Shown in pieces: positions 34,472 through 34,631 of a stretch of 36,673 nt of DNA. Both the position numbers and the translations under genes were made by a program. Where the stretch lies: the NCBI GenBank assembly GCA_021783595.1, contig JAJXTS010000008.1:1-36673 (forward strand). Reading direction: 5' to 3'. This DNA is from Chloroflexota bacterium (GTDB lineage Bacteria > Chloroflexota > Limnocylindria > Limnocylindrales > CSP1-4). Each line of letters starts with the position of its first letter. Position 1 is the first letter of the stretch. The notes below the pieces were generated by a model, which saw nothing but the letters and a program-made list of their open reading frames with translations, was not told where the DNA came from and searched no databases.

Positions 34472-34551
34472 GCCCGGCGTCACGGCGCTCCCCGGGGACG
34501 CGAGCCGCCCCGCAGCCTCCGGGCGCGGTAGACTGTCCCGGATTTCCGCGC

Positions 34552-34594
34552 CGGTCCCGTGAGGCCGGGTGGCCCCGTGAGGCCGGGAAGGAGG
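34552..34594 (+). promoter_or_regulatory. Putative tandem PyrR-binding RNA hairpins in the pyr operon leader
   Basis: GGUC[CCGUGA]GGCC and GGCC[CCGUGA]GGCC hairpins built on tandem CCCGTGAGGCCGGG (34556-34569, 34574-34587), followed by GGAAGGAGG; matches the PyrR-binding-loop consensus hexaloop CNGNGA. Confidence 0.7.
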
Positions 34595-34604
34595 AGCGAG
34601 CCGC

Positions 34605-34631
34605 GTGCGACGCTACGGGGTGACCCGATGA
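34605..34631 (+). CDS. Putative 8-codon leader peptide (MRRYGVTR*) overlapping the pyrR start
   Basis: GGAGG (34590-34594), 10-nt spacer, GTG CGA CGC TAC GGG GTG ACC CGA TGA; its TGA overlaps the pyrR ATG as ATGA. Confidence 0.45.

Follow-up and report, generated by a model that had tools for sequence, protein, structure and literature searches.

How is a pyr operon controlled when its leader carries two stacked PyrR-type hairpins, a Shine-Dalgarno sequence directly behind them and a short open reading frame (ORF) that ends on the start codon of pyrR? The question arises near one end of the window, by which we mean the whole 36,673-nt stretch of DNA analysed, one contig of a 2.6-Mb Chloroflexota assembly that is 86% complete. 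An earlier note, made from the sequence alone, had described at this locus a −10-like TAGACT, two hairpins with an exact 14-nt duplication, a Shine-Dalgarno sequence and an 8-codon ORF, and had proposed that PyrR represses translation of pyrR-pyrB-pyrC through coupling. The coordinates of all these elements were confirmed in the sequence (Table 1), and alignment of the orthologous leaders, suggested in the same note, showed that the hairpin pair and the leader ORF are conserved in the genus and beyond.

The pyrR leader of the window

The duplicated stretch CCCGTGAGGCCGGG lies at 34556–34569 and again at 34574–34587, with a period of 18. Both window hairpins have a CNGNGA hexaloop closed by C-G and Y-G/C-G pairs (UCCNGNGAGG), and in all 11 genus members with a readable leader the loops likewise match the consensus, which upholds their earlier assignment to the PyrR type. 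Each of these 11 leaders contains both hairpins, the Shine-Dalgarno sequence and an 8-codon frame whose stop falls on the start of pyrR. The genus shows hardly any variation in GATTTCC, the hairpins or GGAAGGAGG (L022 has GGAAAGGAGG) but does vary in the bases before GATTTCC; in hairpin 1 of L014, a U-G pair is improved to U-A. Since hairpin 2 ends at 34585 and the Shine-Dalgarno sequence begins at 34586, a PyrR-type hairpin directly abuts the ribosome-binding site of the first ORF, as it also does in relatives.

Nearly all relatives have a TANNNT motif 16–20 nt before hairpin 1, against a background of 3/313 windows of 45 nt. As a scan of the window leader found no sigma-70-consensus promoter, the transcription start can be placed at ~34540–34542 only indirectly; given the distance from the −10-like element to the hairpin, the mRNA would begin almost directly with the CU-rich strand. 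In Bacillus subtilis, where PyrR acts by transcription attenuation, the anti-antiterminator has the consensus ARUCCAGAGAGGYU, and a purine-rich internal bulge has been described in a review as important for PyrR binding (PMC7430163). This bulge and the lower stem of the PyrR loop are absent from the window, where GCG separates UUUCC from hairpin 1 and CCUUUAA is missing.

The genes downstream are tightly packed. As the earlier note had stated, the leader ORF shares ATGA with pyrR (34628–34631), as in 11/11 genus members and in most genera, and further overlaps of 4 nt join pyrR to pyrB (ATGA at 35188) and pyrB to pyrC (GTGA at 36204). No Shine-Dalgarno sequence of its own is evident for pyrR in the window leader. 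The closest solved relative of the encoded PyrR is 1ufr (E 3.8e-71), which we take to be the PyrR of Thermus thermophilus.

Table 1. Positions of the leader elements and pyr genes in the window
Feature	Position	Strand	Basis
TAGACT, −10-like element of the pyr promoter	34529..34534	+	TANNNT at fixed distance from hairpin 1 in relatives
UUUCC, putative anti-Shine-Dalgarno strand at the mRNA 5′ end	34543..34547	+	GATTTCC invariant in genus
PyrR-type hairpin 1, CCGGUC(CCGUGA)GGCCGG, 6 pairs	34551..34568	+	conserved in genus; fits consensus UCCNGNGAGG
PyrR-type hairpin 2, UGGCC(CCGUGA)GGCCG, 5 pairs, adjoining the Shine-Dalgarno sequence	34570..34585	+	conserved in genus; carA-based model
Shine-Dalgarno sequence GGAAGGAGG of the leader ORF	34586..34594	+	directly 3′ of the Shine-Dalgarno-proximal hairpin in relatives too
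8-codon leader ORF MRRYGVTR, GTG CGA CGC TAC GGG GTG ACC CGA TGA	34605..34631	+	11/11 genus members
pyrR, UMP-sensing RNA-binding regulator / uracil phosphoribosyltransferase	34628..35191	+	NF003549 equivalog, 251 bits; ATG start
pyrB, aspartate carbamoyltransferase	35188..36207	+	NF002032, 370 bits
pyrC, dihydroorotase, truncated by contig end	36204..36673	+	NF006845, 124.6 bits over the available 156 aa

The tandem leader is real and conserved and not a product of chance, given the presence of both hairpins and the 8-codon frame in 11/11 genus members, the match to a covariance model (R2) built solely from the carA leaders of relatives (34541–34594, covering both hairpins; 50.1 bits, E 8.9e-10) and the low background rate of a hairpin-plus-loop scan of the remaining window (~0.08 such matches per 175 nt at a similar threshold). 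The earlier note had predicted that the Rfam PyrR model would also find the element, but no Rfam family relevant to PyrR matched in the window, and RF00515 gave no match at E ≤ 10 in 33500–36673. At E ≤ 1, RF00515 likewise did not match L009, L193 or L194, carA leaders among them, in contrast to L054 with 62.5 bits; L315 and L319, from other Chloroflexota, come near its cut-off. The window element is thus outside RF00515. A simple pattern scan of the same genome with GGYCCNGNGAGRCC returned 17 sites against 7 in controls and was discarded as too unspecific, for which reason covariance models were used instead.

Two neighbouring ORFs may be mentioned. Upstream of pyrR, a 183-aa ORF (33920–34471) without a Pfam match looks like a secreted barwin/RlpA-like domain, and an ORF with a similar end (..VTVTVY or VTVSIY before the stop) lies upstream of pyrR in many relatives. 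Pro-Thr-Ser-Ala low-complexity repeats (TPSPTPTPTPSPAP) at 33340–33430 are part of an 824-aa ORF with a weak match to zf-HC2 (anti-sigma type).

Tandem and single elements at pyrR, carA and carB

Of 107 genomes of the family, 88 contain pyrR. The tandem pair precedes it in every readable leader of six genera (g1, g3, g5, g13, g18 and g21; 33 genomes), with the loops 18–22 nt apart. Most other genera have a single canonical PyrR element, CCUUUAA-N-GACCGGY(CNGNGA)GGCCGG-R-AAGGAGG, in which the AAGG of the 3′ lower-stem strand doubles as the beginning of the Shine-Dalgarno sequence. A few genera (g6, g7, g17 and g33) show degenerate forms at pyrR, and no PyrR element was detected at pyrR in g8, g10, g12 and g24. 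The single form is likely to be ancestral at pyrR, because it also occurs in outgroup Chloroflexota, Clostridia, Nitrospirae and Omnitrophota and because CCUUUAA is found in 0/33 tandem pyrR leaders. On the best PyrR tree the tandem state changes four times, and one origin is also possible.

Variations on the tandem theme were seen as well. The upstream hairpin of pyrR leaders in g13, g5 and g18 (L125, L025, L020 and others) has a 7-nt CNNGNGA loop on a 5-bp stem, and the hairpin next to the Shine-Dalgarno sequence keeps CNGNGA. A possible third PyrR-like motif accompanies the pair upstream of pyrR in L130 and upstream of carA in L256 and L233. Five genomes that are more than 90% complete (G003, G017, G029, G032 and G033) gave no pyrR match at E 1e-30, which could be due to assembly gaps or to real loss leaving orphan sites; one of them, G003, still has a tandem pair at carA.

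The duplication is exact, as the earlier note had it, but it is not just a local event of this leader, for the same arrangement stands before carA in the family and in a second family. It came to light when a single-element model, run over the relatives, returned adjacent pairs of matches away from pyrR and a reading of these revealed carA (identity by the TIGR01368 equivalog). The genome of the window itself has such a pair before carA-carB (L193; contig 236, G000:C236, minus strand, ~5329–5386), followed by the leader ORF MHHRLPAAGARTPRTAGI, TGAGTG and then carA-carB. In total, 68/81 readable carA leaders of the family, from most of the 24 genera sampled, pass the hairpin-pair test; their loops are exactly 22 nt apart in 61/68 and 21–23 nt apart in all 68, and with few exceptions the genera have canonical CNGNGA in both loops. 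Among the 13 leaders that fail, several show two motifs by eye (e.g., L280, L284 and L291). In the sister family f2 the pair recurs at carA with both strands of the stems altered (GCGAUC/GGUCGC instead of CCGGUC/GGCCGG; L312 and L324), and carB has its own tandem pair in g2 and in some members of g13 (L306, L307, L308, L309 and L323). Matches in families f3–f5 and the rest of the phylum are mostly single elements; five of the phylum matches (L313, L314, L317, L318 and L321) do not precede pyr or car genes as far as they were read, look like chance and were set aside. A peculiarity of six g2 carA leaders (L241, L246, L253, L255, L256 and L287) is a palindrome, GCGACCG..CGGTCGC, which lies within the PyrR hexaloop of one hairpin or of both and is not a repeated genomic element.

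Covariation differs between the forms. Across phyla, the upper stem of the single form has two-sided changes in 5/6 pairs, with 0/500 shuffles as good. Within the family, the changes in the tandem carA form are all one-sided and the form is 97% paired, and for the Shine-Dalgarno-proximal hairpin at pyrR the covariation score was reached in 8/500.

Folding, leader ORFs and terminators

Free-energy folding, put forward in the earlier note, did not bear out the two-hairpin form: the window leader is no more stable than shuffled sequences (z 0.22), its structure of lowest energy differs from the two-hairpin one, and in most tandem leaders Vienna favours another structure by ~3–10 kcal/mol. Either PyrR would therefore have to stabilise the two-hairpin form, or the refolding belongs to a switch. 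Imposing the hairpins lowers the accessibility of the Shine-Dalgarno sequence in some leaders only, from 0.95 to 0.33 in the window, and has little effect elsewhere (0.91 to 0.86 in L011, 0.85 to 0.88 in L025).

In every genus a CU-rich 5′ strand can pair with the Shine-Dalgarno sequence; in the window, UUUCC can pair with GGAAG (34586–34590), thereby enclosing both hairpins. This pairing is a likely clamp resembling the lower stem of the single form, CCUUUAA...AAGG, and masking of the Shine-Dalgarno sequence by such a lower stem is plausible. The lower-stem pairing does not beat a permutation in which partners are swapped between genera and is mostly not significant against single-genome shuffles. 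The proposal of translational repression through coupling stands as far as the adjacency of the Shine-Dalgarno sequence, the overlaps and the lack of an attenuator (0/86) are concerned.

Wherever the Shine-Dalgarno sequence lies more than ~20 nt from pyrR, a short ORF of 6 to more than 20 codons fills the gap, and in nearly every genus it ends on the pyrR start via ATGA, GTGA or TGATG; in a few exceptions the frame reads into pyrR in frame or stops early (L127). In g3, g15, g21 and others there is no leader ORF, and the Shine-Dalgarno sequence adjacent to the hairpin serves pyrR directly. At carA, the leader ORFs have 9 to 59 codons and share GTGA or ATGA with the carA start or else close with TGAGTG; even in G002, where the frame is unlike that of its congeners, the stop is still on the start codon. 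The overlap was present in 19/19 sampled pyrR leaders versus 5.3 expected at a chance of ~28% per leader, a single overlap being not rare by chance since any start codon with A as the next base includes TGA.

Terminators distinguish the operons. A terminator-like hairpin with a downstream U-tract was found in 0/86 pyrR leaders of the family, and no terminator-like site was detected at 34300–35200 of the window. The carA leader ORFs contain a hairpin and U-tract 3′ of the pair in many genera (all 19 of g2, g8, g9, g21, g24 and others) and not in g1, and in g2 carB is preceded by a terminator-like hairpin and by a leader ORF overlapping its start. Since many carA leaders have terminator-like hairpins and the pyrR leaders have none, one module with two kinds of readout emerges, which appears to be translation only in some leaders and probably combines translation and termination in others.

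A probable two-site PyrR switch, its alternatives and known systems

From the hairpins, their spacing and conservation, the overlaps and the lack of a terminator at pyrR, all read directly from the sequence, we infer PyrR binding, a response to UMP, masking of the Shine-Dalgarno sequence and coupling: the leader is probably a two-site translational off-switch through which PyrR, encoded directly downstream of the hairpins, regulates pyrR-pyrB-pyrC via the leader ORF. Transcription would start a few bases before UUUCC. At high UMP, PyrR, probably a dimer or higher oligomer, would bind and stabilise both adjacent CNGNGA hairpins and would either hold the 5′-terminal UUUCC on GGAAG or merely crowd the ribosome-binding site, hiding GGAAGGAGG. 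The 8-codon ORF would then stay untranslated and the whole operon would be silenced by loss of translational coupling, as the 4-nt overlaps throughout and the lack of an evident Shine-Dalgarno sequence for pyrR suggest. At low UMP, the hairpins would be free to refold, the leader ORF would be translated and the ribosomes would pass on to pyrR. At carA and sometimes carB, control may lie with the same module at a loop-to-loop distance of 22 nt; where a terminator-like hairpin lies inside the carA leader ORF, an untranslated leader would also end transcription.

Among the alternatives, a refolding switch is unlikely. Here the duplicated arms would form, without PyrR, one long hairpin from the 5′ arm of hairpin 1 and the 3′ arm of hairpin 2, with the loops paired CGUG/CGUG; PyrR would impose the two hairpins, and refolding rather than clamping alone would set access to the Shine-Dalgarno sequence. 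Two mutually exclusive folds had been suggested in the earlier note, and free folding indeed predicts the long hairpin for L012, L018 and L134; an alternative fold of the window with the ORF region frees the Shine-Dalgarno sequence (0.95 unpaired). However, the long fold of L012 and L018 likewise includes UUUCC paired to the Shine-Dalgarno sequence, the ORF-region pairing exists in the closest species only, tandem self-complementary GGCC arms always permit such a fold, and L014 and L015 weaken it yet keep both PyrR motifs. We regard it as quite unlikely that only the Shine-Dalgarno-proximal hairpin is a working PyrR site and the upstream copy a relic of slippage duplication or a non-binding spacer. 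A single element suffices at pyrR outside the tandem genera, the tandem state needs few changes on the tree, and the 7-nt upstream loops of g13, g5 and g18 are off consensus, but this would leave the upstream hairpin's retention in 33/33 tandem pyrR leaders and most carA leaders, at near-fixed spacing, to be explained, as well as the canonical state of both carA loops and the upstream stem of f2, which still forms with different pairs.

Two further mechanisms are far less probable. Transcription attenuation of the Bacillus type, in which bound PyrR would promote termination ahead of pyrR, is the mode of PyrR in B. subtilis (PMC7430163), and L315 and L319 are such leaders in other Chloroflexota. 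With no terminator in the window leader or the 86 family pyrR leaders, no antiterminator seen and no match to RF00515, it is strongly disfavoured and very improbable here; translational repression fits the terminator count better. Least probable of all is sensing by the leader peptide itself, through attenuation by the nascent peptide or by codons, the hairpins playing a minor part: a short ORF does lie 3′ of the element at most operons, but its length (6 to 59 codons) and its peptide differ among genera whereas the stop/start overlap is constant, g3, g15 and g21 lack it at pyrR, and where the carA peptides of g2 resemble one another (HRA..AGG.FV), the resemblance coincides with the terminator-like hairpin.

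If two-site repression holds, the regulon of PyrR in the order would comprise as many as three operons and would escape the current Rfam model, and the relatives would offer a ready-made range of one-site and two-site leaders for the same gene, by which cooperativity of an RNA-binding metabolite sensor and changes between translational and transcriptional output could be tested by comparison. The fixed 22-nt loop spacing at carA is compatible with cooperative PyrR binding. More tentatively, Limnocylindrales-like Chloroflexota may possess a ‘double PyrR box’ in which one PyrR oligomer bridges both hairpins at near-fixed spacing (22 nt at carA, 18–22 nt at pyrR), replacing the classical contact with the internal bulge and giving a steeper response to UMP, with translation-only control at pyrR and translation/termination at carA and carB; the near-fixed spacing and the lost bulge point to such bridging. 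Tandem aptamers are already known among riboswitches. No report of tandem PyrR sites was found in the searchable literature, which does not extend to the main subscription papers.

The nearest parallel may be Mycobacterium smegmatis, whose pyr leader reportedly undergoes PyrR-dependent translational repression. A PyrR-type hairpin there also sits beside the ribosome-binding site at the start of the pyr operon and no terminator is present; unlike that site, the window has two tandem hairpins and a short ORF between the Shine-Dalgarno sequence and pyrR. With the B. subtilis attenuators and RF00515 it shares the PyrR regulator, the CNGNGA loop, the upper stem and the pyr operon, but it has two hairpins, no antiterminator, no terminator and no RF00515 match, and the tandem pyrR form lacks the purine-rich bulge. 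The single element of other genera in the family agrees with it in position, upper stem, a Shine-Dalgarno sequence sharing the AAGG strand and leader-ORF overlap, and differs in being one hairpin with a UUUAA/GA internal loop. In the Thermus pyr leader, the PyrR site is said to overlap the ribosome site of a leader peptide, with coupled attenuation. The window differs from it in the tandem hairpins, the stop/start overlap with the gene and, throughout its genus, a pyrR leader without a terminator; a leader ORF behind the PyrR site is common to both, and in several genera the carA leader has a terminator-like hairpin within its ORF as well, an analogy which suggests that these carA leaders share the Thermus logic.
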